A DNA stretch of 64,000 nucleotides, from NCBI RefSeq assembly GCF_021917145.1, contig NC_061078.1:5228576-5292575 (forward strand). Reading direction: 5' to 3'. Source of the stretch: Hypomesus transpacificus (Eukaryota; Chordata; Actinopteri; Osmeriformes; Osmeridae). The translations under genes were made by a program, and so were the position numbers. Below are positions 1-23,421 of this stretch, piece by piece. The notes under the pieces are model-generated. The model saw only the letters and a program-made list of their open reading frames with translations. It ran no database searches and had not been told where the DNA came from. Position 1 is the stretch's first letter. Each line of letters begins with the position of its first letter.

Positions 1-185
1 CTGAAGACTGTCTGCAACAAAAGAGCCATGCAGGTGAGTCTCTGTCAGACACAGTACATCTGCTAGCCTCAGCTCATGATGTCTCTTGATGTCACCGATG
101 TAAGATGGCAGTCCCTCTGTGTTGTGATGAACAAGGGTCAGAGTGTCAGGCCTGTTTACTGTTTCTGTCATCTGAAAAAGAGGCA
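1..185 (-). pseudogene. Helitron C-terminal EEP endonuclease domain (5' part only)
   Basis: Translation of the minus strand from 185 down to 1 stays open and reads through HHNTEGLPSYIGDIKRHHEL and LADVLCLTETHL. This matches the start of an endonuclease/exonuclease/phosphatase (AP-endonuclease-like) domain, with the Glu of TETH as the expected metal-binding residue. It follows the helicase end in the same frame, so it is part of the same polyprotein. The rest of the domain lies outside the window. Such nuclease domains are known from Helentrons and are unrelated to the Rep nuclease. Confidence 0.7.
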
Positions 186-1197
186 TCATGTGATCCACAT
201 CGGCTTTCTTATGGTCTCGAGCGCTGCAGTCACTTCAGGATTGGCGTATATTTTCTTTTCATCCAAATTTAGTAAATAAAGACCACTGAGAGACGTCACT
301 CTGCTGAGAGCTACATAAGCCATACCTGCTTCAAAGATTTTCTGCAGTGACACCACAGCTGCATGTGTTGTGAGGCCCTGGGTTTTATGGACAGTGCACG
401 AGAACGCCAGCCTCACAGGAAACTGTCTACGTACCACTCCGTTCTGTTTCAGCTTCTCCTCTGCTCTCTCGATGTAAACAAGATTGTCAGATTCTGGAGC
501 TCCACTCTGGTTTATTGTTACACCTGTCTGATTGTCCATCCTCAGGCCCAGCTTAGTGATGTGTTGATCATCTTCAGAAGTCACGATGCTCATCAGTGTA
601 GCAAAAGCACCGTTAACCAGACCATTCTGAACATCAAAGTTTCTGGTGAGCATGACACGAGCCCCTTCAGCAACTTTCAGAGTGTCTGCTAAATCATTTC
701 GACCTCCTTATATGGTGTTTTCGTGCCATTGTGCCTGTTCGGGGATCTTTCTGGAAGTCATCTGCATTGATCGTTATAATGTTGGAATGGAACAAAGACA
801 GTGTTGCTGAGTTGTGTTCATCAACCAACTTATTTGTGGGGAAAATGTGCAGAACCTCAGTGGGACAACGAGCTCGTTCAGTGATGGCCTGTGACAACAA
901 ATCTCTGTCAGCCTGAGACAGCTCATCTGCCTTTTGTTTCACCCAAATCCTGTTCAACATGTCTGCAAAGGCAACATCATCTTTCTGTCTCATGATCTCA
1001 GTCAGAGTGATCATCGGAAAATGTTCCTGCCACAGGTCAATATCTGCTGGATCGTGTACACAGAGCGGTTTAGATTGTCGCACAGGTGGCAGCTGATAAA
1101 AATCTCCAACAGCTAAAACTGACATTCCACCAAACGCTCTCTGATTGCCTTTGATCAGTCGTGCGTCCACATAAGCAAAAAGAGGCTCCGAAACCAT
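186..1197 (-). pseudogene. Helitron helicase, C-terminal half (Pif1/RecD-like)
   Basis: The upstream piece (1197-694) begins just after a Walker B stretch (IIIIDEISMVSEP, spanning an in-frame stop at about 1224) and continues through FGGMSVLAVGDFYQLPPV, the Pif1-type motif III with its GDFYQLPPV signature. The downstream piece (653-186) holds [11 protein letters not shown]-like and VHKTQGLT motifs and ends in the [10 protein letters not shown] motif typical of motif VI in Pif1/RecD helicases. A frameshift near 690 separates the pieces. In an intact Helitron this ATPase unwinds DNA during rolling-circle transfer. Here it is non-functional. Confidence 0.85.
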
Positions 1198-1221
1198 CGA
1201 GATCTCATCGATTATGATGAT

Positions 1222-2583
1222 TTAAGCATTAAACAGTTCAGATCTGAGTTCATCCAGTTTGTTACCAAGTCCTTGAATTGGTGGTTTCAGACTGCGGGGA
1301 AGCTTCAGTAGAGAGTGAAGTGTTGTGCCACAGATATTGAAAGCTGCAGTTCCAGTGTAAGAAGAGAGTAAAACAGTTGGGTTTGATATGTCAAACTCCT
1401 CTGAGTAGAGTGGCAGTTTGCTCAGTATCTTAGATGCCTCTGAGTAAATGCATTCTATCAGGTGTGACTTTCCTGTTCCTGCACCACCGTTGACATAAAA
1501 GAAAAACTGCTCTGGATTTAGGCCACACACAAGTTTATTGCACCAGTCTCTGATTGCATAGAACACACAGGCCTGCTTCTGGTTCAGGTTCTGATACATA
1601 TGTCGTAGCACAGCTGGATCCATAGCTGGGGGTTTTCTGATGGCTCTCATTTCTGTTACAGCAGCAGACTGAGGACAATAGTCTGGCACATTTACCTGTT
1701 CATCGTCTGGCTCTCTTTCCTGCAGGTCATCATCACACGGCAACCTCACAACTTCAGATTCAGGAGCAAGATTACACCATTCATCAATCACATGGTCTCT
1801 GCTCTCCTCAAACTCTACAAGTGCATTCTCAATCTCCTCAGTGTTTTTCTTATATTTGTCTCTGTTTGTTTTGACAATATGTTTCACACTCTCAGGACGG
1901 TTTGAGCCTGGTAGCTGGACCCAGCCAGAGTTGTAAAAAGAATCGTAGGTTGGAAGATCGGCACTTCGTATTTCATACTCAGATCGGTGAGGAAGGTACA
2001 GTCTCAGTAATCTGACATAAAACTGCTCTGGGTGTTTCTTCTTTGAACAGTGGTAATATCTGATGACAGAGGGCTTATCATTTTTCCGCCTTTGGACAAA
2101 TCCCAGGTCATTCAGAAGTGGTAAAACGCCATCACGCTTTGAGTGGTCTGCACTGACAAACCTGCAGGTAGCAGCAAAATCAGCCAAGCACATCTCCTCA
2201 TACTCTGGTGTCTCAGGTCTGGCTTTGTATTTGTCACTCAAACTTGTCATCCAGACATTACAAGACTCTGATGGGGTGTCCTCCAAGAATGACATGGGGC
2301 GACTCATTTTCACAGGATTGTCATCAGTCGGAATGAACACAACACTGCGTGAACACTTTTTCATCTTTATTCCACATGCACGAGTCACACACTCCTGAGC
2401 ACTGATCTCTCTCTTTTTTGAGTAAGCCTGCATGACAGCTCTCATCTCATCACACTCATTAACTCTGTCCATGTTGGAATTCTCCATGACTGTTTTCAGG
2501 TACTCTGACAGACCACTTTCCTTCTTTGTGATGTATTTAGTCAGATACTGTATACACGAGTAAGCATTCAGAATGAAAGACAC
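1222..2583 (-). pseudogene. Helitron Rep tyrosine region plus helicase N-terminal half
   Basis: A 453-codon open stretch. Near its start is YLTKYITKKE, which carries the paired tyrosines expected of the Helitron Rep active site. A Helitron linker follows, then the helicase N-terminal part with Walker A GGAGTGKS at about residue 366 and the SSYTGTAAFNI motif. The stretch ends at a stop immediately before the Walker B sequence. It continues the Rep domain encoded upstream, which lies in a different frame. Helicase and Rep in one chain is diagnostic for Helitrons. Confidence 0.88.
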
Positions 2584-2630
2584 ATCGATGTTACTGTCCC
2601 AGGCTTTAAGCAGATGTGGGTTGTACCCGT

Positions 2631-3286
2631 TTATCCAGCAGTCTTTAGGTTCATACTCTGAAGGTACTGTTCATACTCTGCCAGTGTCAAGTTGGATTGA
2701 GAGAGGACCTGCTCTATACTCAAGGAAGCAATTTCAGGTTCATTCAGCAGCTGCAGCAGAGGTCTGAGTTTGCTCTTTGCAGTTCCAGTGTTATCATCCT
2801 TACCAGGTCTTGTGATCATTGTGCTTGTGCAGGGTGGCTTTGGAAAACCAAACCGACAACCAGAGTTCACACTCTTGAAGCAGCTCCTAGTGTGGTTCTT
2901 ACTGTGCTTCTGAACTTCAGAGACTTTCTGGTACAGTTCAGGTTGTGTTTCTGGGTCAGGTAGTTGTGCTGAGACGTATCTGTCTACAAAATCACACACA
3001 GTCTGATCATCACAAACATCCAGTTCAGGTACTCCATCAATCCAAAGCATTCCATGAATATGTGGACTTCCTCTGTGCTGAAACTCTACTCTGTAGAAAA
3101 AGTCAATCACTTTCCCCAGTGGCTGAGCATCTGAGAACAGCAGATCTCTGAATAGTGCCTCAACACGCTTATCAAACAAACGCATGCATGTGACAGGGTT
3201 GGATCGCAGAATCTGACATTTAGCAGTCCAGTCAAGTGATTCAAAATCTACCTCTTCACCTTGCTGTCTCTTTATTGCTTCAATCA
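2631..3286 (-). pseudogene. Helitron Rep domain, HUH nuclease part
   Basis: The conserved stretch [19 protein letters not shown] contains the HUH motif (HIH) that coordinates the metal in rolling-circle Rep nucleases. Upstream is the Helitron_like_N signature [17 protein letters not shown]. The frame is lost near 2635, just before the sequence that carries the Rep tyrosines. The N-terminal part of the same domain lies at 3701-4196, separated by the LINE insertion. In an intact element this domain nicks DNA and joins to its 5' end. Confidence 0.87.
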
Positions 3287-3700
3287 TTCCGGGAGTACAA
3301 TGGTACTTAGGAATGGTTTACTGAACCCAACGCTAGTTTCCTCAAGGATCACAATGACTCTTGCTTAGACTGTTGCTCTTGTTGGTTAGTGGTAGCTGAT
3401 TTAAACTGTTGTATTCTATTTTAGTTAATCCTATTTTTATTGCTTTCCTACAGGTACACCTGCACTTAGAGATTAATGTTGTGTAATTTTAACTTGTTTA
3501 ACTACATGCTCTTATGGTTTCTTCCCTTTAGCACTATTTTTTGGTTGTTCACAATATGTACTTCTTGTTTTTGACTACCCGCAATGCTGTGGGGCTATCT
3601 TGTTGTTATTATCAGTGACCTATGCACTTTGTAAAGCTCTCTCTTGGAAGTCGCTTTGGATAAAAGCGTCTGCTAAATGAATAAATGTAAATGTAAATCA
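3287..3700 (+). repeat. L2-like LINE 3' end inserted in the Helitron
   Basis: A 414-bp block that interrupts the Rep coding sequence. It ends in the tail typical of fish L2-type LINEs and the SINEs that share that tail: gtcgctttggataaaagcg, then tctgctaaatga, then repeated aaatgt units. The Helitron reading resumes on both sides (RWPEV then IEAIK). The pentamer aatca occurs at 3282-3286 and again at 3696-3700, a plausible target duplication. There is no coding sequence inside, so this is a 5'-truncated LINE or a tail-sharing SINE. Confidence 0.75.
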
Positions 3701-4196
3701 CTTCAGGCCATCTGAATTCAGCAGCTGAAAATGTGCAGAAGAATGTCGGAGTTCCCAACTGTCTGATCATGGCAAACAGATCTTTCGTGGTTTTCTCCCA
3801 GTATACTGGAGCCCCTTTCAGTGGCTGCATGAATCTGATTGCATCTTTATTTCTCACCAGTTTCTCAACCTCTCTTTTGTCTTGTAACATGCCTGAGATT
3901 ATCATGCGTCCATCTCTGGTCATAGTTTTACCTTTCCTCAGCTGTATCGTCATGCTGTTATTAGCCAAGTGTATCTCTATCACAAACTGTGCAAAGAACA
4001 AGTAGTTTGGGTCTCTGGCAAAACGATCATCCACATTAAAAAGCCGTGACTTGAAATATCCACTTGGACTGACTTTAATGTGTCTCATTTGGTCCAATGT
4101 GTTCTCATCCGTAGGGAACTGTACAGGGAATGACATTGATTCCAAATGTGGAGTCCTGAAGAAGCTTACTGGGCTATTCCTCTGTGCTGGTGCCAC
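3701..4196 (-). pseudogene. Helitron_like_N, N-terminal part of the Rep domain
   Basis: The translated stretch (for example [53 protein letters not shown]) matches the conserved N-terminal block of Helitron Rep proteins. [19 protein letters not shown] is the most recognisable part. The chain is cut at RWPEV by the LINE insertion and would continue at 3286. Upstream, a short broken linker leads to DUF6570. Confidence 0.85.
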
Positions 4197-4248
4197 ACAA
4201 AAAGTGTTATAACTGTAACAGAGGATCTCTTCTGATATGTCAAGAGGC

Positions 4249-4930
4249 TTAGCATGATTCTAAAGCAAACCCTCCATTTGGCAGATCACCTTTGTCTCCG
4301 TCATCTCTCTGCTGCTGTGGTTGTTCACATTCACCATTCTGATCATTTACAGGCTCATTTTCTGCCTCACTCAGTGCATTTCTCTCACACACGTCAATTT
4401 GCATCAAATCTGCATCCTCATTGTCATCCTCCCCCATGCTAACATCATCATCATCATCAGGAAGTGTTGGGTCACAGAGTTCCGCTTCATCTCTAATAGT
4501 AACGTCCTGATACTGTGGATGAATCTGCTTCAGTTTCAGTAATGCAGAGACTAGTTTAGACCAGGTTACTGTCTGAAAAAGCTGATGCCCTCTGTAAGAC
4601 AAACGTCTTTTCAGTTTCACTCTCATCACCTGAGACTCACTCCTCAGTCTGGGTAATGCATTGACTGTCTCTTGGACCTCAGATGGCACACGAACAACAT
4701 TTCCCCTGATCAGTCTTTGTCTGCCTCTTGGAAGAGGAATGATCTTTGCAAACGGTATGCACTTAGCAATCAAATGTCTTTACAAAATATTCAGATCTGA
4801 CAGTTCGCTGGGAATTTCAGACAACTCAAGTTTATTAGCTGCTGCGAGGTTTGGCATGCATCCTTTCTTTAGATGAGCGTGGCATGTGTGACAAATCCAC
4901 TCTTTCCTTCTCTCATCAGGAACTGTGCAT
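4249..4930 (-). pseudogene. Helitron DUF6570 region
   Basis: The core stretch (4773-4249) includes PLPRGRQRLIRGNVVRVPSE and SALLKLKQIHPQYQDVTI, the pattern seen in the DUF6570 domain that precedes Rep in many Helitrons. Just upstream, in the same direction, lie WICHTCHAHLKK (a CxxC zinc-binding pair) and ELSDLNIL, separated from the core by one stop. An acidic tail rich in Asp follows. The function of DUF6570 is unknown. Confidence 0.75.
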
Positions 4931-4941
4931 GGTTCACTTCT

Positions 4942-5694
4942 TTAGGCTTCATCACAAACATGAACATACTTCCCTGTCAGACATTGTGAGACCACATTTG
5001 GATTTTTGTCATAGTTTGACCTTGTGCACGTTCGTACCTGGTTGGGAAACGAGGCCTTATGGCACACAGTGCAGACATAAGTGGGACCAGCCTTAATATT
5101 AGATCTAAACACAGATATGGCTTCATTGATCAATCTATTCTCAACTGTCTCGTGTTGCAGACTCTGTGTTTCTCTGGTCTCTGTTTCACTCTGAGTGTTT
5201 CTGTTCATCCGTCTGTATTTTCTTTTTATGCTCACTGTACATCTGATGTTATGCATCATCCTAAATGAATGATTGTTATATCGTTTTCTCATTAATTCTT
5301 TCATAAGCTCTCTGTGTCTGAGCCTGAATACTCTGTCATTTGCATAACGATGAGTGATATAATATCTTTGTTTCTGTCGAAAAGCTTCACTTTGACTGTA
5401 ACGGTTTCTGATGTAGATCATTTGTTTCTGTCGAAAAGCTTCACTTTGACTGTAACGGTTTCGGATGTAGATCATTTTTTTTTGTCAAAAAGCTTCACTT
5501 TGACTGTAACGGTTTCTGATGTAGATCATTTGTTTCTGTCGAAAAGCTTCACTTTGACTGTAACGGTTTCTGATGTTCATCTTTTGTCTATCTCGAAACA
5601 CTTTGTTTGTTCTATAATTATTAGAAAAATACAGCTTCAGATACTGTTTGCGTTTCTGTCTAAATTCAGCATTTTCCCTGTAGGAATTCCTCAC
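4942..5694 (-). pseudogene. Helitron basic-repeat and Cys-rich region
   Basis: Two open stretches (5694-5485 and 5475-4942) are parts of one reading, split by a single in-frame stop. The N-terminal side is a repeat of 18 residues built on IRNRYSQSEAFRQKQ, rich in Arg, Tyr and Gln. The C-terminal side carries TYVCTVCHKASFPNQVRTC, a four-Cys zinc-binding pattern that comes before DUF6570 in fish Helitrons. The basic repeats probably bind nucleic acid, but this is inference. Confidence 0.65.
5371..5586 (-). repeat. 54-bp coding tandem repeat, four copies
   Basis: Units begin at 5371, 5425, 5479 and 5533 with a constant 54-bp period and encode the 18-residue repeat of the Helitron protein. Units 1, 2 and 4 are close to identical. 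Unit 3 has drifted (a T run and a changed cgaca-type codon) and holds the stop. Confidence 0.9.
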
Positions 5695-5712
5695 GCTCTC
5701 TCTCTTTTTCTC

Positions 5713-7123
5713 TCAGACTTTCAGATTTTTCCTGTAAGAATCTCTGATGTATGATTTATGTTTTTCCCTTAATTCAGAGTTGTGTTTATACTTATTAATA
5801 TTTTGCAGGGTTTTCTTCTGTCTAATATCAATATTATTTTGATATGTCAGGTTTGAGTAAGATCTTTTCTTTGCTCTAAAAGTTTCATCTGAAGTATACT
5901 TTTCCCTTTCTTTCTTCCTTTTATTCTCTTTACTTAGTCGAGGTTTTTCTGTCATCCTTAGTCTACTCTTCAGTCTTTTCCTCTGCTGTTTATTTAACTT
6001 TTTCAGTTTACAGATTTCTATCAGTACAGTATCAGAGAGCTTTGTGGACACATTGTTTCTTATTAAGGGTGAAAGGTTTGATTCACAGGAAGCATCATGT
6101 GATGAAAGGAAACTGGATTCTCTTGTTGCTTCTTTGTCAGCACTGGTAGGAGGGAATGAGACATGTTGTTGTTTAACATCAGATGTAAAACTAATATCAG
6201 TGGACACACCTTCCATTACATCATCACAAAGATCATCTACAACAGGGTTCATCACTTCTTCTGTGAAGTCATGTGCAGGAGAAGCTTGTGTTTGGAATAT
6301 AACATCAACCTCTCGTTGAACAGCATTTGTGTCAGCTGACATTTCTGGTAAAACGTTCTCAGACTGATCCGTGGCTGTTTGCATCATTGATTCATTGACA
6401 GCTTCCTCTAACAGAGGAGGTATATCAACAGCTGTGTGTCTGCAGCCTGTGTCTGAATGAGCATTTCTCTGGTTGGATGTGTTCACACAGTGAAATGACA
6501 GAGGCTTGAGTTCATACATACATGATGACTCGATGTCAAACATTGTGTAGCACAACTTGATCCTGTCAATCATGTCACTCAGATGTGTGAATTTCAGCAT
6601 CACAGCAGTACCTAAGTTCAACAGCCTAGAGGACACTGGCATTCCATTTGTGTTCCTGGAGTGTGGGTCAAAGTATCCGTACTGACCAGATCTGTATCTG
6701 AAAACTGCGATACATAACCCTGACATGATAAGCAGCCCATACTGTACATCTGATGACAGAAAGCTCAGTCCATGTTCAAGGCTGAGAAGCCTCTCTCCAC
6801 CTCTAAATGTTCCATACACAGACAGCTGAGTCAAGTCCACCTGATACTTTGACCTGCGTGCACAAACTTCATCTGGAAGTTCATCAGATGCCAAATGGAC
6901 ACTGTTAGGAAACCTTTCTCTGGCCTGTCTGTACACAACATCACCTTTATCCAGAACTAGGTCAAGATCTGCTCTGTTAATATTTTCATTCTCATGAAGA
7001 AATGACAGAAACACCAAACTGTTGGTTACACACTGACTGTTACTGTATTTTCCATATTTTAATGAAGCCTGACTGCGTGAGTCACAGACATGTGTCACTG
7101 ATGGCTGAGGTTCCAATTTTAAC
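5713..7123 (-). pseudogene. Helitron N-terminal region with papain-fold cysteine peptidase-like domain
   Basis: About 470 codons are open from the junction at 7123. The first 200 residues contain YGKYSNSQCVTNSLVFLSFL, with a candidate catalytic Cys after Gln, and later GQYGYFDPHSRN, with a candidate His/Asp. This is the arrangement of OTU-like or herpesvirus-tegument-like (C76) peptidases found in some fish Helitrons. A Ser/Thr-rich linker and a Lys/Arg-rich segment follow, leading into the basic repeats. The natural start is missing: the first codons of the open frame come from the antisense of the neighbouring transposon. The choice between OTU and C76 is uncertain. Confidence 0.6.
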
Positions 7124-13532: not shown

Positions 13533-13691
13533 TCGCGATAGCCAGTCGAATGTGCTCCGGGTGCCGCTAATTCCCCCTTGCTCAGCAGTGGACGTTGGAG
13601 TCTTGCAAGACTCGTAGCTCCCGTTTAATCGCTTTCTTGACATCCCCTTGAATTTAGAGTGAGGAAAAACGACTTACAGCGTGGGCCGAAT

Positions 13692-14013: not shown

Positions 14014-14189
14014 AACCCGTGGTGTTTGCAAAATACCGTCTACTCAAGGAAGTGGTCAACGCGTCATTTTCAAAAAGGTCACGCCATAACACTGCAGACC
14101 ACTGACTGGTCAGAGAGGATTGCGACACCGGATAAACTTGTCTTATTGAACTAGCCGAGCCACTGAACAACAAACGAGCCGAAAAGCAT

Positions 14190-14262
14190 TGGAGAATGCG
14201 GGCATCGATCCCGCTACTTCTCGCATGCTAAGCGAGCGCTCTACCATTTGAGCTAATTCCCC
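14190..14262 (-). tRNA. tRNA-Ala-AGC: tRNA-Ala(AGC), unit 1, first of a tandem pair
   Basis: On the minus strand a 73-nt cloverleaf: acceptor ggggaat/attctcc with one G-T pair, A box tagctcaaatgg, anticodon stem ctcgc/gcgag with loop ttagcat (AGC), T arm gcggg-atcgatg-cccgc, discriminator A. This is nearly identical to vertebrate tRNA-Ala(AGC). A run of four T (cttttcgg) follows 4 nt past the gene as terminator. Array consensus. Confidence 0.96.
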
Positions 14263-14268
14263 CTTGCT

Positions 14269-14341
14269 TGGAGAATGCGGGCATCGATCCCGCTACTTCT
14301 CGCATGCTAAGCGAGCGCTCTACCATTTGAGCTAATTCCCC
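14269..14341 (-). tRNA. tRNA-Ala-AGC: tRNA-Ala(AGC), unit 1, second of a tandem pair
   Basis: An exact second copy of the gene, 6 bp from the first, produced by a 79-bp tandem duplication. The gene body is intact, but its own downstream T run is lost, so transcription would read into the neighbouring copy. Confidence 0.95.
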
Positions 14342-14549
14342 CTTGCTCAGCAGTGGACGTTGGAGTCTTGCAAGACTCGTAGCTCCCGTTTAATCGCTTT
14401 CTTGACATCCCCTTGAATTTAGAGTGAGGAAAAACGACTTACAGCGTGGGCCGAATACGACCGGTCGTTTCACGCCGACACGAGGTGGCGCCTAGGACAT
14501 TGCATTTCCGCGGCTGGAGACAGTGTCCGCGGCTGGAGAGTGTGTCTCT

Positions 14550-14623
14550 GGCCCGTTAGCTCAGTTGGTCAGAGCGTGGTGCTAATAACGCCAAGGTCGT
14601 GGGTTCGATCCCCATACGGGCCA
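14550..14623 (+). tRNA. tRNA-Ile-AAT: tRNA-Ile(AAT), unit 2
   Basis: Consensus sequence with the T5 terminator. Confidence 0.97.
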
Positions 14624-14703
14624 ACCACCCCTTTTTGGGGATCTTTTCCATTGCTTTATTTCGTTTGTGGCAAGGCTTTGGAATGCTACTGACTGGGTTT
14701 GGA

Positions 14704-14778
14704 ACGCCTATAGCTCAGTTGGGAGAGAGAGTTAGGCCGAGGGTGTCAAGGTCTCTGGTTTGATCCTCGGTTTGGGTA
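14704..14778 (+). pseudogene. tRNA-Phe-derived pseudogene, unit 2
   Basis: Same as unit 1. Confidence 0.68.
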
Positions 14779-14963
14779 AACCCGTGGTGTTTGCAAAATA
14801 CCGTCTACTCAAGGAAGTGGTCGACGCGTCATTTTCAAAAAGGTCACGCCATAACACTGCAGACCACTGACTGGTCAGAGAGGATTGCGACACCGGACAA
14901 ACCGGATAAACTTGTCTTATTGAACTAGCCGAGCCACTGAACAACAAACGAGCCGAAAAGCAT

Positions 14964-15030
14964 TGGAGAATGCGGGCATCGATCCCGCTACTTCTCGCAT
15001 GCTAAGCGAGCGCTCTACCATTTCCGCTAA
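14964..15030 (-). pseudogene. tRNA-Ala(AGC), unit 2, interrupted by transposon copy 2
   Basis: The 3' 60 nt of the gene are intact up to aaatgg of the A box. The 7-bp duplication ccgctaa (15024-15030) and then the transposon follow. The 5' stub (ttagcgg plus the first acceptor bases) sits across the element at 22720-22732. The insertion destroys the internal promoter. Confidence 0.93.
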
Positions 15031-15053
15031 AGCTGGGGAACAATCGCCTGTTT

Positions 15054-15153
15054 GAGGGGGGAAGAAGGGGGAGAAGGGAGGGGGAAGAAAAAAGGAGGAA
15101 AAAGGGAGAGGAAAAAAGGGAGAAGAAGAGGAAAAAGAGAGAAAAGGGGAAAG
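15054..15153 (+). repeat. 100-bp uninterrupted polypurine tract at the left end of copy 2
   Basis: Every base is A or G. The equivalent tracts measure 71 bp in copy 3 (23445-23515) and 107 bp in copies 4 (35530-35636) and 5 (44621-44727). The length changes come from gains or losses of short gga-rich blocks. Confidence 0.9.
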
Positions 15154-16052
15154 TTGAAAGTCCCCATTCATAGTTTAAACATGTTTAACCCGTTACGTTT
15201 TAAGACAATTCGAAAAAACACCCGAAATTACGAATTTTACAGTGTTTGGGGAAGACGTAGAATGGAACCGAAGGTCCGCGGTTCGCGTCCCACCTACGGC
15301 ACCTTTGACTATTTCTAATAAACACACACACTTGAGTCTCCAAGTGTGTATGTTATCAAAATGTAACAATATAAGATAGATGGAGATACGTTGCTAATTT
15401 AGTGTAATTTGAAAACCATTTGTATCCACTAGTGCATTATTTATATTTTACAGGGTTATCTATTGTACACTATTTGCCTTTATTTGTATTCACTCCACAC
15501 AGGAGTACTGTTTTTAGTTAGTTTTAATTAGATCTATCTCTCTATCCATCCATCTATCTATCTCTCAAACTGTGTGGCTTCTGAGCTTTGTGTGCTCTTA
15601 TCTGAAGCTCTGTCTTTTTGGTTTCTGCACTTACCATATCAACACTTGCATGATCCATATATTAAATATTTTAAAACAATGTGCGCAAGCAAGCGTAAAG
15701 TTAGTCACTTTTTGCTGCTCTTACTTCTTGCAGACTTGCCGTATTTGGTTAGAAAGAGTAGTGATTGGGAAATAACGACGGACTGACCAACAAATAGTTG
15801 ATAAATAGAAACATTTATCCACAATTGTAAAAATAGAAATATGAACAACAACAACTAATTTAAACTATATATATATATATATATATACAGGCAAATGATA
15901 TGCTAAATTACAATATTTACACAATGAAAACTATATACACAATGGAAATCTAAGCATAAACTATATCTAAACAATGAAAACGATATACACACGGGAAATC
16001 TAAGCATTAACTATATCTAAACAATGAAAACTATATACAAAGGCCCAAAGAA
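15154..16052. other. Non-coding left end of copy 2 (3' flank of the transposase gene)
   Basis: About 900 bp with no convincing coding sequence. It contains tatc/tctc microsatellite sequence (about 15530-15566), a TA run (about 15868-15890) and a 50-bp repeat next to the stop codon. The 67-70-codon plus-strand frames near 15572-15786 have no recognisable features. The same segment recurs in copies 3, 4 and 5 with small changes in the TA run. Confidence 0.7.
15921..16040 (+). repeat. 50-bp direct repeat in the transposase 3' flank, copy 2
   Basis: acaatgaaaa begins units at 15921, 15971 and 16021. Two units are full and the third is partial. It lies directly downstream of the transposase stop codon and so in the likely 3' UTR. 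Confidence 0.85.
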
Positions 16053-19000
16053 TTATTTCTTTTTTTGCTCCTCCAGCCACTGCTCTCTGGACAGAGTCTC
16101 TGCAGAGGGGCAGTAAACAGTCCCCTTATACTGGCTGTGGCCAGTCTCTGCCGTTCTGTTCTGGCCACACCTCCAGCATTTGTTGGCCTCCACTCTCCTC
16201 TGGTGGGCACGGGGAGCTGGACCAGGAGCAGGACGAAGCTGGGGAAGGTGGGTGGTGCAGGAAGAGGGTGGGACAAAACGCAGGGCTTGGGGGACCATCA
16301 ATGGAGAGGGGGCAGAGGGTGCCCTCATACCAGGGGCTCGGGAGACAAACACCACAGTGGGGACGGCAGCAGGGCGAGGGGCAATGGTGGTAGGGCGGGG
16401 CATGATAGGGATGGGAGTGGGGGCTCCAAGGGCGGCTGAAGGGCCAGGGAAGAGCTGCCTCTGGGCTGCCAGCCTGGGTCGGACCGCTGGAGGTGGTGCT
16501 GTGGCTGCATATGTTGCCCGCCTCTTGGTCTTTGCCTGCCCTGCTGTGCTCTGCGGCAGGTGGTAGGTGTGGGCTGCTCCCTGGGGTTGAGGTGGAGCAA
16601 CAGCAGGGCGGACGTTGGCAGGCGGGAGAGGCTCGGTAGCCACAGACAGAGGACCTGGCAAGTTTATGCCCTGCTGCAGCACAGCCAGATCCTGCCTCTT
16701 CACCCTCCGGTTGTACCACTGGGAGAGGGTCGACTGGTTCACCTCCACCAGCTGCAGGGTGGTGCCCTGCATGATGGCCCCATTGCCCAGGATGAGCTGC
16801 CGGACCTTGCGGTAGTCCTGCAGGATCAGAGTCCACCTGGACATGCTGCTCTTCCCCTGCTTCCTGGGACTCTTGTGGATGTCCGAGAGCCGGACGAAGA
16901 TGGCCTCCACAAGGCGGCAGCAGTCTGGCCACTGAGCAGGCGAACCAGTGGACCCCAGGACACACCTCTCCACACTCTCCACACCTGGCGTGAACTCCAC
17001 CTTTTTTTTGTGGCGGAACCTTCCCTTTATCAGCCTGTCCAGGTGCCGCGCAGCAAACACGACCCTCTGCTTGTCGTAATCCAGCAGGTCTTGCCACAGC
17101 CCCACAATGTTGCTGACCTAAGAAGGAAAGAAAACATATATTTTATATGTTTATATATTATAAATATATAAACAAATATCTGTTGTACAATGAATGTCTT
17201 GCTGACCTGCTGGTTATCGAGGGTCATGTTGGTCTGATGCCTCAGCTCCACTAAGCACTCTGCCAGTCTATCCACCCGATCCATGCCTGGCATGCCATGC
17301 TCGTCCACAGCCTGAAACATTGAACAATTTCACATTAGCGCTGAACACCTCATGGCAAAGGTATGTTATATTGACTGCTGCTGCTGTGTGTTTTATTTGT
17401 TTGCTGTCAATTACTGTGTGTTGTTCCTAATAATGAATTGCGCTTGTATTCAGACACTTTCCTAACTACTGAACTTGTTAGTTTCTATGAATGACAGTTA
17501 ATTACTAGTAGAAAGTTAACATACCAGCTGTTCTTCAGGCACCTGTGAGGAGGCACCTGGGACACAAGGCTGGGTTATGGGGGGAGGCAGGGTGGTAGCT
17601 ACAGGCATGGGGGTGACAGGCAGAGTGGTGGTGGTGACAGGTAGGATGGAGGTGGTTAGAGACAAGGTGGTGGAAGGCAGGGTGGAGGAGGTGAGTGGCA
17701 GGGTGTTAGAAGGCAGGGTGGAGGAGGTGAGGGGCACGGTGGGGACCACAGGCAGGGTGGTGGAAGGCAGGGTGGAGGAGGTGAGGGGCAGGGTGGGGAC
17801 CACAGGCAGGGTGGTGGAAGGCAGGGCGGAAGACGGGAGGTCTTCCGAAACACTACCAATAGTGAGGTCCTGTTCGTCATCCTCAAACCCTTCATCCGCC
17901 TGTTCCTCCTCTGTGGCGTGGTCCTCCAGCAGTTGGTCTGTCTCCTCAGAGTCGGGGTCCATGTCCTGCAAGGGCTGCCCTGTCTGCCTAAGCAGGTAGT
18001 TCACCCCAAGCAACTCTCCTGAACATGAACAACAATGCAATGCTAATGAGTATTAAAAAACAGATATGGAACTTACCATGATGCATAAATACTGAGCTCT
18101 CAACAACATCATTATTTGTATTCATATTTGCCCTGAGACTTACCGGTGTACTTTCTCGGCGGGATGAAGGAGGGGACATACTTCCTTCCAAACACCTTCA
18201 GGCTGTTGCTGTTGACGGACTCCAGCACGTCCCCCGCGTACGTCAACAGCGCCATGCGCTTGGTGGTGATGGAGGCCGCTGCCCGGTTCTGGTTCCACCT
18301 GTTCAGGCCTTCCAGGAGGTACAGCTGGAAGTTGAGCAGGTTTGCACTCGTTCCTAAAAAAAAAAGAGAACGTGAACAATGATTAACAAGGCTATTTGAA
18401 TATAATTTCATTATTAAGAATAATGTTTAGATGAAGATCTACACCAACCTGGAATAAACCTGTTCAGGTGGCAGTGGAAGGACTCCAAGGAGGTGGAGCC
18501 TCTTGCACACCTGTATGTGGTCAGCTGGATCCCCTCCCTGGTGGAACTGCCTGTCTCAGTGTACAGGAGTACACCTGGCACATCCTGGATGCACTTCACG
18601 TGCCTCTTCTGGGTGCGCCAGATGTGCTCCATCTTAGGCTGGTCCAGCAGCGGAACCCCGAGCAGGTCTCTCCCCTTCTCCCCCATCAGCTCCTGCAGCA
18701 GCTGCTCAATGCGGAGGACCGTGGCGTCCACTCCACGTGTCCTCCGCCTGCAGAACTGGGACAGCTCAGCCTTGGTGATGGCCTTGTCCACCATGTCACT
18801 GGTGATGAGGGGCACACCCTCCCTTTTGAGCTGCTCCCTCTTCACCCTGCGCAGTAGGGCTACGTCTGCTGCGTCCCACTCGAACAGGCACACAGACAGG
18901 CGGCTCATGAAGAGGGGGTACAGGGCATGGGCATCGGTGGTGCATCCCACGGCCAGCCGTCGCATAAAATGCCAGATGTCCAGCCTTATTTTCAGGTCAG

Positions 19001-21971
19001 GCCACCCACCAAACCTGGCCTGAAGCTTGGTCTCCCCCTCCTCTGAGCAGCAGCCACAGTCCACATAGAGCAGGACCGGGGGAGCTGCACCTGCCTGGGT
19101 GTACCTCTCAATGAGGCCAGAGACCATCGGGTCCAGCCCCGGTCCCTCCTGGGCAGTCAGGACACTGATGAGGACCTGGCCGATCTCATTCCCCACCGAG
19201 GTCACCCAGAATGCAGTCCCCTTTGCTGCACCAGCCAGCTTCTTTGTCATCTGAAATGACAAAATTCACACAGAAAACTTCATGAGAGGTTTCAAAAGAA
19301 AGTCTGTTAAATAAACACAGAAGTGTATTTATTTATTTATGTATTACTGCAGTCTAATCAAAGGCATGGATGTGTGTGTGTATGTGTGCTTGTAAGAATA
19401 CAAATCATTGAGGTTTCATGTTTTCATTGTGTTGTACATAATTTACACTATGGATTTTCTTCATCCTATTACCTTTTTGGTGGAGTCCATCTTCAAAATG
19501 TTACCAAAGGTTGACGTGATGGACGCCTTTATATGGTCCATCCGGCTGATGATGTCCCTGCCGTACACCGACAGCACCCACCGGCTGGTTGGGACATCGA
19601 GGGGCTGTGGAGGTTCCTGGCAGGTCACTGGGAAGAGGCTGGGCTGGTCAACGAAGGCCGCACACTCCCCCAAGTAGTCGGCCAGGCGGTCCAACCACTC
19701 CTCCCCATGGTTCTCCCGCAGCTGCTTCACCAGGCACGCCGGGCTATTGCCGAGGGTCCGTTCCCGCAACATGCGGATGACCCGTATGTCACAAGCATAC
19801 CTTGAAGAAAAGACAGATAAGTTTCAAGAACTTGTTCAATTATGTAAGGACCTGCAGCAGGCATTATCAGAAAATGATTGTAGATTTTTAACTCACAAGC
19901 GTGTCAGGATCATCCTGAACTTCCTCCTGTGAGGCAGGTCCAGCTGGTCCAGGACAGCCTGACTGGTTGCCAGATGGGTCAGGCGACACACAGTGCACCT
20001 GAGTGTCTCCGTCACCATCAGGTAGTAGCGGTCCACGTCCAGGACCTTACGCACCCTCTTGTGCACACCATACCCCGTCAGCTGCTTCCCACAGGTTTGG
20101 CAGACTACCCTCACTTTCCACAAGTGATAGGGCATCCATACCAAGAGCCTGTGGGCAAAAAAGCGGTCCGGTGTTGGAGCCTGGTGGTATATCAGGGCAG
20201 AGGCTGGTGGCTCATACCAGAGCTTCAAGTTCAAACGCAGCTTGCCAGACTGAAAAAGGGTGGACGCAATCCACCGTTGGTCCTGAACTGGGATCGTCTC
20301 CTTCATTCTGACAGGAAGCCAGAAGTCAGGAGTTGGACCAGGAGCAGGGCCAGGAGCAGGGCCAGGAGCAGCAAGCTCATCCTCATCATGCACATCCTGT
20401 TACAAAACAAGAGAAATAAATATATTTATAAAAACAGAATAGCCCAATCATATGAGAACAACCTCATCTTATAAAACTAAAACAGTTCCAAGAACACAAC
20501 ACTTACAGCAGCCATTGCAGGGCTGGTGCTGGTCTCTGAGACAACAGTGCTGAGGCTGGAAGCTGTGCTGGGCCTCACAGAGGTCATCGCAGGGCTGGAG
20601 CGAGAAGTTGTCCTCATGGAGGCTTTGTAGGGGGTGGATGGGGGCTTTGAGAGCGGTGATTCCGTCCTCACAAAAGCCACGGCAGGGCTTGATGGTGTTC
20701 TGGGCCTCACAGAGGCCATAGGGGAACCGAAGCCAGGTGGGGGGGTCCTCACAGAGGCCATAGGGGAACCGAAGCCAGGTGGGGGGGTCCTCACAGAGGC
20801 TGTAGGGGAACCAAAGCCAGGTGGGGTGGTCCTCACAGAGGCCATGGGTGAGCTGGCAGTGGCCTGGGTGTCTCCTGTCATGGTGGGTGGACTGGACAGA
20901 GGCTGGGAGAAGGATGGGGGGAAGCATTTGTAAAAAGTAGAAATCAATGGACTCAAATCAAGCTCTTAAGATTTAGGTTTGCTCATATTAACCTATAAAT
21001 ATGTATTATATTATATTTACATATAATCATATTTACCTTTGCTTTCCTAACCACATTCACATTTGGCTTTGCAGCAGCGCCATGTGAGCCTCCAAATCGT
21101 GGTTTAGAAAACTGTGGTGACAATTAGAGCATTTATCAAAGGAATACATTGTAAACCTGAAATGCTCTTCCATTTTGCCATCATCATATGTAATCAGTGG
21201 TTGTCCATATTTGAAAGCTTGTATGACAATAATATTGAAATACTCACCATGGACAAATTCAGTGTGGGCCGTGCTGGGACATGGGCTGAGGCAGAGGCTG
21301 AGGCCATTCCCAGTGGAGGAGGGGCAGAGGCAGAGGCTGAGGTAGAGGCTGTTCCCAGTGGGGGAGGGGCAGCACAGGTAGAGGTCTCTGCCACAGTTTG
21401 CCCAGTGGTTGGCTGTATTAAGGACAGAGAGATCCATGTCAGACATCACATTACTGAGCACATCACATAGTGATTCTTTTAGTGTTTTGGTGTCAAGAAG
21501 TCTCATTCACATTACCTTTGGGTTGTGAAAGCCACAAGCACACTGCTGTGTCCCACCAAACAGCATTCTTTGACCCCCTGACTGTAACGGGCACTTCTCA
21601 ATCTGTTCCAAATAAAACAAACACTTTTTTAAAGAAAACAACCCAATAGAAATGGAGCGTTTTGACATATCTTCTATTGGTGACTAAACATGACATTGAC
21701 ACTGAAGTTGCTGTTCATTATGTTTATCAAGGTCCCATACTGTGACTGGTATTTCTGGCAATTCAGTAATCTTTTATAGGCCATCAGAATTTTTTTTCTG
21801 TGATCTTTTGCTCATTTTATATACCTTTTGAAAGAGGTCATACCACCTCTTCTGTCTTGGGGCTGGCCTGTTGCCTGCATCAGCAGGCCAAACCCCAGAG
21901 CTGGCAAACCTCCTCAAACGGGACATCCATTCCCCATCCCCCATTCCTTTGTGGCTCTTTGAACTCGACAT
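16053..21971 (-). CDS. Dada-like DDE transposase with DUF6729 zinc ribbon, 12 exons, about 1,457 aa
   Basis: Exons in gene order: 21825-21971, 21516-21602, 21248-21412, 21037-21111, 20507-20902, 19897-20396, 19473-19800, 18449-19250, 18144-18353, 17525-18018, 17207-17311, 16053-17117. All junctions are GT-AG and the phases agree. Start MSSSKSHKGM follows an acceptor directly. Residues 50-78 hold a CxC/His cluster and 159-290 are Pro/Ser repeats. C389/C392 and C424/C427 form the DUF6729-like zinc ribbon. The candidate triad is D562 (MDSTKK), D630 (LLYVDCGCC) and E822 (TSLESFHCH), with RLDIWHFMRR between. The spacings of 68 and 192 residues imply a helical insertion. FIPGTSAN and GLNRWN follow, then an acidic Ser/Thr/Pro repeat region, and a C-terminal CWRCGQ...GHSQYKG...YCP zinc knuckle. 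The gene would cut and join the element; the exon model is by eye, and exon 4 is the least certain. Confidence 0.82.
17666..17830 (-). repeat. Coding minisatellite in exon 10 of the transposase (copy 2)
   Basis: Imperfect repeats of up to 54 bp encode Thr/Leu/Pro/Val-rich units such as LPSTTLPVVPTVPLTSS. The tract follows an acidic stretch and is probably an unstructured linker. It is identical in layout in all five copies. Confidence 0.8.
20716..20841 (-). repeat. 42-bp coding tandem repeat in exon 5 of the transposase (copy 2)
   Basis: Three 42-bp units (20716, 20758, 20800) encode the 14-residue unit SVRTPPPGFGSPMA with small changes. The period is a multiple of three, so whole-unit changes keep the frame. 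Copies 1 and 5 have irregular changes here that break it. Confidence 0.88.
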
Positions 21972-22581
21972 CTAATAGGTAAAAGGAGCGATTTTTACAC
22001 TAGTACAATAACATGTATTTATTGTTATAATTAGCTTTTTAACATTTCAAATATTTAGCTGGCTACTATTTCCAGAAGAATATTTTTGTACTTGTTCTGG
22101 GTCACTTTATTACCACAAGTGAAAAAGTTATATTTATTTCGTTTTGTCCCCAGTGACATATATTATATATAACAGGTTAAATATTGCTTTTGCTAGTCGG
22201 AATAACATCTGTCGCTACAGTAACCTATTAGTAATCCCTTATAAAAGTAGCTAGCTAAATGACAGCAATACTACCTGAGGAAATCTACTAACTAGCCTAC
22301 ATGACAAACTCTGAAATGACAAACTCTAATATTCGTGATATTACTTGTCATTGACCCGATGAATGCTAACATGTATTGAAATGTCAAACGGATAATTATT
22401 TTGATTAGCTATGTATGTATTTACCTTTGCGGTGCGCGGTACTACAGACAACTTGAAACAGCGTATCCTTCAATGAATGAACTGACGCGACTACTGTCAC
22501 TCATCTCACAACTTCGGCGGGGGTCAACCTCGGCGGGGGTCTCTGGGGTCGTGGACGCCGTTGCTACGGCTCAGCTCGGCG
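21972..22581 (-). other. 5' leader exon and first intron of the transposase gene (copy 2)
   Basis: A donor (caaag|gtaaat) at 22425 and an acceptor ending directly before the start ATG at 21971 define an intron of about 450 bp. The sequence from 22425 to about 22580 would be the untranslated first exon. No other coding sequence is visible. The leader exon start cannot be fixed from sequence. Confidence 0.5.
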
Positions 22582-22688
22582 TGACGTAATTGGAGATGTA
22601 CGTGTTCCGATTGGCGCAATCGGACTGACGCAATTGGACAGTGAGAATCCGATTGGCCCTCGAACCTTGAACCGAGGTAGCTAATTGG
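22582..22688 (-). promoter_or_regulatory. CCAAT-box cluster / CRE-like site at the right end of copy 2
   Basis: ATTGG (CCAAT on the gene strand) occurs at 22589, 22610, 22633, 22652 and 22684, about two helical turns apart for the first four, with TGACGTAA at 22582. One pair is embedded in an inverted repeat ccgattg-gcg-caatcgg. The cluster lies just upstream of the leader exon, the right place for NF-Y-type promoter sites. Being near the terminus, the repeats could equally be transposase-binding sites. Confidence 0.55.
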
Positions 22689-22940
22689 TCGCGATAGCCA
22701 GTCGAATGTGCTCCGGGTGCCGCTAATTCCCCCTTGCTCAGCAGTGGACGTTGGAGTCTTGCAAGACTCGTAGCTCCCGTTTAATCGCTTTCTTGACATC
22801 CCCTTGAATTTAGAGTGAGGAAAAACGACTTACAGCGTGGGCCGAATACGACCGGTCGTTTCACGCCGACACGAGGTGGCGCCTAGGACATTGCATTTCC
22901 GCGGCTGGAGACAGTTTCCGCGGCTGGAGAGTGTGTCTCT

Positions 22941-23014
22941 GGCCCGTTAGCTCAGTTGGTCAGAGCGTGGTGCTAATAACGCCAAGGTCGTGGGTTCGAT
23001 CCCCATACGGGCCA
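22941..23014 (+). tRNA. tRNA-Ile-AAT: tRNA-Ile(AAT), unit 3
   Basis: Consensus gene body. The downstream terminator is a T6 run followed by gagg. Confidence 0.97.
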
Positions 23015-23094
23015 ACCACCCTTTTTTGAGGATCTTTTACATTGCTTTATTTCGTTTGTGGCAAGGCTTTGGAATGCTACTGACTGGGTTTGGA

Positions 23095-23169
23095 ACGCCT
23101 ATAGCTCAGTTGGGAGAGAGAGTTAGGCCGAGGGTGTCAAGGTCTCTGGTTTGGTCCTCGGCTTGGGTA
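23095..23169 (+). pseudogene. tRNA-Phe-derived pseudogene, unit 3
   Basis: Further changed in the T arm (tttggtcctcggcttggg). Confidence 0.62.
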
Positions 23170-23354
23170 AACTCGTGGTGTTTGCAAAATACCGTCTACT
23201 CAAGGGAGTGGTCGACGCGTCATTTTTAAAAAGGTCACGCCATAACACTGCAGACCACTGACTGGTCAGAGAGGATTGCGACACCGGACAAACCGGATAA
23301 ACTTGTCTTATTGAACTAGCCGAGCCACTGAACAACAAACGAGCCGAAAAGCAT

Positions 23355-23421
23355 TGGAGAATGCGTGCATCGATCCCGCTACTTCTCGCATGCTAAGCGA
23401 GCGCTCTACCATTTCCGCTAA
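23355..23421 (-). pseudogene. tRNA-Ala(AGC), unit 3, interrupted by transposon copy 3
   Basis: The 3' 60 nt remain, with one change in the T stem (gcgtgcatc). ccgctaa at 23415-23421 precedes the element. The 5' stub is at 29976-29988. Confidence 0.9.

Follow-up and report, generated by a model that had tools for sequence, protein, structure and literature searches.

Five copies of one transposon family interrupt tRNA-Ala genes of a tRNA-Ile/tRNA-Ala array within the window, by which we mean the whole stretch of 64,000 nucleotides of Hypomesus transpacificus DNA analyzed here. The copies (C1 to C5) are a new family in the known superfamily Dada, an assignment supported by motif layout, spacing, and habitat; no database match is named Dada. 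Very probably, this is a Dada cut-and-paste transposon that enters tRNA-Ala-AGC at nucleotides (nt) 8 to 13 and carries its flank along, and the copies reflect several insertions plus exchange. Few DNA transposons insert at strictly defined sites; Dada elements belong to these, and those who discovered them have proposed their use in delivering genes to repeated loci where insertion does no harm.

The tandem array covers positions 13571 to 64000 and is interrupted by C2 to C5. Its units measure 687 or 696 bp and pair a plus-strand tRNA-Ile gene with a minus-strand tRNA-Ala (AGC) gene. ARAGORN called 30 tRNA-Ile and 24 tRNA-Ala genes in the window; a count from the sequence itself gives 26 uninterrupted tRNA-Ala genes. 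The units also contain a third, tRNA-like sequence (e.g., 14708 to 14780, TATAGCTCAGTTGG), which has 24 exact matches and went uncalled by ARAGORN; it contains TAGCTC and carries no insertions. Between C1 and C2, a tRNA-Ala gene is duplicated in tandem as an exact 79-bp repeat (14189 to 14347). An Rfam search of 14190 to 23414 (E up to 1) returned seven matches, four of them complete tRNA genes, two of them sub-threshold remnants of interrupted tRNA-Ala genes, and one a sub-threshold match to YrlA where the tRNA-Ala gene is duplicated; given these matches, we rejected a tRNA-derived fragment within the element.

All five elements lie on the minus strand. C2 occupies 15024 to 22726, exactly the span originally predicted, which comprises the element and both flanking 7-mers (7,703 bp). 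C4 (35500 to 43207) and C5 (44591 to 52297) are likewise full length, and the three range from 7,703 to 7,708 bp counting both 7-mers. C3 (23415 to 29982) has an internal deletion of 1,112 bp, and C1 (7124 to 13570) has no left end. Where that end would be lies a Helitron-like element (1 to 7123, minus strand) with matches to Helitron_like_N (1.1e-15) and Herpes_teg_N (1.1e-11) and a weak match to PIF1 (4e-4, under its cut-off).

Every junction falls at one position, TAGCTC at nt 8 to 13 of tRNA-Ala, in the A box, and the A-box site of the original prediction is exact. In C2, the minus-strand tRNA-Ala sequence ends in ACCATTT and is followed by CCGCTAA, the element, CCGCTAA again, and the 5′ stub of the tRNA, so the predicted order is borne out by the junction sequence. 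The 3′ part of the interrupted gene (nt 14 onward) lies to the left of C2 at 14964 to 15023, with a sub-threshold Rfam tRNA match, and the stub (nt 1 to 7, numbered from an intact gene) lies to its right at 22726 to 22732, both on the minus strand. That all five copies join at the same tRNA position, as had been claimed, holds for five right and four left junctions, C1 having no left junction. On the right, the sequence is CCGCTAA in all five copies; on the left, it is CCGCTAA in C2, C3, and C4 and the native GAGCTAA in C5. Uninterrupted tRNA-Ala genes, read on the plus strand, have GAGCTAA (24/26) or GAGCTGA (2/26), and CCGCTAA occurs in none of the 26 in the window. Flanks of 6 to 7 bp therefore agree with each other in three of the four copies with two junctions, yet differ from the uninterrupted target. 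Because uninterrupted genes never read CCGCTAA and the left flank of C5 is native, the apparent 7-bp target duplication of the original prediction, although the two 7-mers of C2 are indeed alike, is better read as a replaced flank, in the tRNA sense a change from TAGCTC to TAGCGG. The size of 7 bp also stands only in part: the junctions alone fit 6 or 7 bp equally, and a sub-terminal inverted repeat is equidistant from the ends only with the flank counted as 6 bp (tRNA nt 8 to 13). Chance does not explain full-length joins at the identical base in four or five genes, although the copies are perhaps not all independent insertions. TAGCGG has 39 minus-strand matches, 8 of them at element junctions and the other 31 within tRNA-Ala genes, where it occurs once in the T-arm region (14211, 14290, and others), by chance or possibly as a hint of an older target.

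Published Dada-U6 and Dada-U1 elements are described as having no terminal inverted repeats; theirs are sub-terminal and reappear at an equal distance in the target (Kojima and Jurka 2013, PMC3706591). Our element, too, has a sub-terminal repeat and no terminal inverted repeat. The left copy (GAACAATCGCCTG, 15038 to 15050, plus strand) and the right copy (GCACATTCGACTG, 22699 to 22711, minus strand) each occupy bases 9 to 21 inward from a 6-bp flank and are identical at 10 of 13 positions with zero relative shift, compared with 7 or fewer at the other shifts from −8 to +8. The corresponding P values, 0.001 by shuffling and 0.003 against random window pairs, are somewhat optimistic because the 13-bp window was picked by eye ahead of the shuffle tests. 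Over the same window, tRNA-Ala matches one or the other element end at 8 of 13 positions (P = 0.018; 0.012 to 0.022 across three scores); the count is 3 for tRNA-Ile and 4 for the third, tRNA-like gene. In a free scan, the tRNA-Ala match is weak (left end, P = 0.045; right end, P = 0.12). All three gene kinds contain TAGCTC, and exact matches to their 14-base D-arm sequences number 24 plus 2 variants for tRNA-Ala, 23 for tRNA-Ile, and 24 for the tRNA-like sequence, but all five insertions are in tRNA-Ala. A TAGCTC core common to three genes per unit, of which one kind is hit, points to a discriminator outside the core. The sub-terminal motif is present in part, at the equivalent distance, in tRNA-Ala, while the tRNA-Ile and tRNA-like genes have TAGCTC without it; DNA downstream of the cut may therefore be used in target choice. 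Since the copies may not be independent, the case for the sub-terminal motif as a target guide is suggestive, not proof.

C2 carries a predicted transposase gene of 12 exons on the minus strand (16053 to 21971; 1,457 amino acids [aa]), in the orientation of the tRNA-Ala gene. We assembled the exon chain by eye from open frames with AG/GT borders: 21971-21825, 21602-21516, 21412-21248, 21111-21037, 20902-20507, 20396-19897, 19800-19473, 19250-18449, 18353-18144, 18018-17525, 17311-17207, and 17117-16053 for exons 1 to 12. Compared by eye as well, the annotated Umbra pygmaea protein P0003 follows the exon order all the way from its N-terminal residues through the C-terminal finger. The predicted protein is intact and identical in C2 and C4; frameshifts interrupt the model in C1 (a 26-bp deletion, with the C-terminal end also lost) and C5 (1 extra bp), and it fails in C3 because of the internal deletion. 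The protein has an N-terminal CCCC zinc finger (C389, C392, C424, and C427), a DDE triad (D562, D630, and E822) with a DxxH motif between the second D and the E (DIWH, 657 to 660), and a C-terminal CCHC finger, C-x2-C-x9-H-x8-C, at 1417/1420/1430/1439. Pfam matched the whole protein to DUF6729 (PF20499; 2.3e-86) and gave no match for exon 8 or exon 12 alone. A PDB sequence search with exon 8 matched no solved structure, and a PDB search with a profile of 43 relatives gave only two matches, neither significant (E = 0.12 and 0.13).

We compared this layout with that published for Dada-U6_DR, whose residues are given as C389, C394, C429, C432, D567, D635, E811, C1359, C1362, H1372, and C1381 (PMC3706591). 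Three spacings are equal in the two proteins: 135 from the last CCCC cysteine to the first D, 68 from D to D, and those of the CCHC finger. Other distances differ, namely, the inner CCCC spacing (x2, x31, x2 in our element versus x4, x34, x2), the D-to-E spacing (192 versus 176), and the E-to-CCHC spacing (595 versus 548), and Dada-U6_DR has 11 exons and 1,402 aa against the 12 predicted exons and 1,457 aa here. Sub-terminal repeats are common to both, with U6 snRNA as the target of Dada-U6_DR (PMC3706591). The DDE and DxxH residues, the CCCC and CCHC fingers, the three equal spacings, the intron-rich gene, and the mostly fish relatives together support membership in Dada and agree with the Dada-like affinity proposed originally.

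Three hundred relatives were reported out of the 7,998 candidates scored, and the 120 of these listed are mostly uncharacterized fish proteins, with some from other animals. Among those listed, the best core identities are to Umbra pygmaea (81%), Dallia pectoralis (78%), and members of several other orders (73 to 76%). After 8 sequences with fewer than 480 aligned core residues were dropped, 113 of 121 (120 relatives plus the C2 protein) entered the tree; across these 113, the first D is kept in 101, the second D in 107, the two DxxH residues in 112 and 107, and the E in 105. FastTree placed the C2 protein with Dallia and then Umbra (support of 1.0 and 0.94), in a clade of 72 sequences including itself, all others being from fish. 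The element is most likely that of a ray-finned fish, and its place in the tree tentatively hints at a host near Esociformes. The Dallia sequence, nearest to the C2 protein in the tree, lacks the first D as well as some of the core. In one branch of related fish proteins, five members (P0085, P0091, P0097, P0098, and P0105) have a substitution at a catalytic position (E to K, second D to N, or first D to A or H) and may be decayed or domesticated copies. Viral contigs, when scanned, yielded 35 pattern matches, none of them confirmed. Host distributions do not name the Dada lineage of the element, because several lineages occur per fish family (Table 1 of PMC8869645) and the protein entries carry no lineage label.

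Published Dada families in tRNA genes resemble the element in different respects. Dada-tA shares the tRNA-Ala target and a flank replacement that is at times one-sided (PMC3706591, PMC8869645): in zebrafish, GCGCAA stands for TAGCAT in five of six full-length copies, and intact genes are without GCGCAA (PMC3706591). Its site, however, lies near the anticodon with the element opposite to the tRNA gene, whereas ours lies at the A box in the same orientation; given the different site (nt 8 to 13) and orientation, we rejected membership in Dada-tA. Dada-tY and Dada-tK share the target TAGCTC at tRNA nt 8 to 13, and the replacement reported for Dada-tY, TAGCTC to TGGCGG, frequently two-sided and at times one-sided (PMC8869645), is close to the TAGCGG found here. 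Compared by target alone, those families hit tRNA-Tyr, -Phe, and -Lys, in which AG follows, whereas our element hits tRNA-Ala, in which AA follows. The tK, tN, tY, and tL families form one cluster (Kojima 2022, PMC8869645). Dada-tIA, -tIB, and -tY of Perkinsus marinus also use TAGCTC at nt 8 to 13 (PMC3706591), but they belong to a protist, are reported as without introns, and target tRNA-Ile and tRNA-Tyr. Our literature search, which covered text from PMC3706591 and PMC8869645, found no published case of Dada at tRNA-Ala nt 8 to 13.

Other readings of the flanks and of the element itself fare less well than a Dada element with replaced flanks. Insertion into a variant tRNA-Ala gene that already read CCGCTAA, with an ordinary 7-bp duplication, would explain why the flanks match in three of the four copies with two junctions, but it is improbable. 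The 7-mer is absent from all 26 uninterrupted tRNA-Ala genes of the window, on which ground we rejected an ordinary 7-bp duplication; moreover, the change would break the D-stem, the two flanks of C5 differ from each other, and like replacements are published for other Dada families (PMC3706591, PMC8869645). Still less credence goes to a true duplication of 5 bp (GCTAA) in which CC belongs to the right end of the element and C5 is the clean form. C5 does read as a perfect 5-bp duplication, but the outer CC of the left 7-mer in C2, C3, and C4 would go unexplained, and with three of four left junctions contradicting it, a pure 5-bp duplication was rejected; the symmetry of the sub-terminal repeat for a 6-bp flank and the published Dada duplications of 6 to 7 bp (PMC3706591) also count against it. 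Membership in some other superfamily, with the element in tRNA genes by chance, can be set almost entirely aside: although no match is labelled Dada and Pfam gives only DUF6729, the Dada motif layout with its three equal spacings, the small-RNA target, and the sub-terminal repeats all speak for Dada.

How many insertions the array records is a separate matter, for which we compared divergence on the premise that an element copied as a block with its flanks would diverge as they do (Fisher tests; flank comparisons counted substitutions and not indels, and C1 contributed its right flank only). Elements and flanks differ at 3/7,694 and 12/1,367 positions, respectively, between C2 and C4 (p = 3.9e-8), at 4/7,692 and 17/1,376 between C2 and C5 (p = 3.6e-11), and at 3/7,699 and 7/1,367 between C4 and C5 (p = 1.4e-4). 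Flanks are more diverged than elements at p < 0.05 in 9 of 10 copy pairs, the exception being C1/C4 (p = 0.59), although every right-flank comparison with C2 includes seven differences unique to one unit, u22720, which is also the left flank of C3. The greater divergence of flanks than of elements in most pairs suggests repeated transposition. The copies are not all independent, because C3 and C5 have a right flank in common (2/688 differences), as do C1 and C4 (1/679); that of C3 and C5 is rare, and beyond it lie the only two GAGCTGA genes and then units without disagreement at any informative site. These common flanks, which for C3 and C5 extend over two units including the GAGCTGA genes, favor one original insertion, flanked by CC on either side, that was multiplied by unequal crossing-over of the array, with the left side of C5 later converted back to GA by an intact unit, and tandem arrays exchange readily. 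We nevertheless regard that history as rather unlikely. The excess of flank over element divergence, subject to the caveat of u22720, persists in the C4/C5 comparison, which is free of that unit; on the left, C2, C4, and C5 are each flanked by sequence identical to a different uninterrupted unit; and a GA-restoring conversion in C5 would have to stop within 5 bp of the element. Several insertions followed by exchange between units are most likely.

For the replaced flanks of these insertions, we propose a mechanism in which the predicted transposase would perform DDE-type cutting and joining. The element would bring the flank TAGCGG from an earlier site, left on the non-transferred strand by the donor cut; this flank would anneal to the target gap, where four of six bases match, and then be ligated. 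Each mismatched junction would resolve separately to donor or target sequence, which predicts two-sided, one-sided, and unreplaced flanks. The two-sided replacement in C2, C3, and C4 and the one-sided replacement in C5 fit this proposal, although the left side of C5 could instead be gene conversion, the tract of which must end no more than 5 bp from the element. Travel of the original flank with the element has already been speculated upon for Dada (Kojima 2022, PMC8869645), and we propose the flap step as an addition to that idea. The full reading, in which 6 to 7 bp from the previous site are ligated into the target as single-strand flaps to give heteroduplex junctions in what would be the first Dada at the tRNA-Ala A box, we put forward tentatively, at somewhat short of an even chance.

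The tRNA-Ala gene has TAGCTC at nt 8 to 13 and is absent from the tRNAs given as hit in the text of PMC8869645, a gap that the present family fills. Two-sided and one-sided replacement found together make a published and unexplained oddity of Dada testable. If the flap reading is true, C2, C3, C4, and C5 would record, side by side, the carry-over of flaps and the resolution of heteroduplex junctions, and the A box of tRNA-Ala would be a site foreseen by the published target rule and hitherto unshown.
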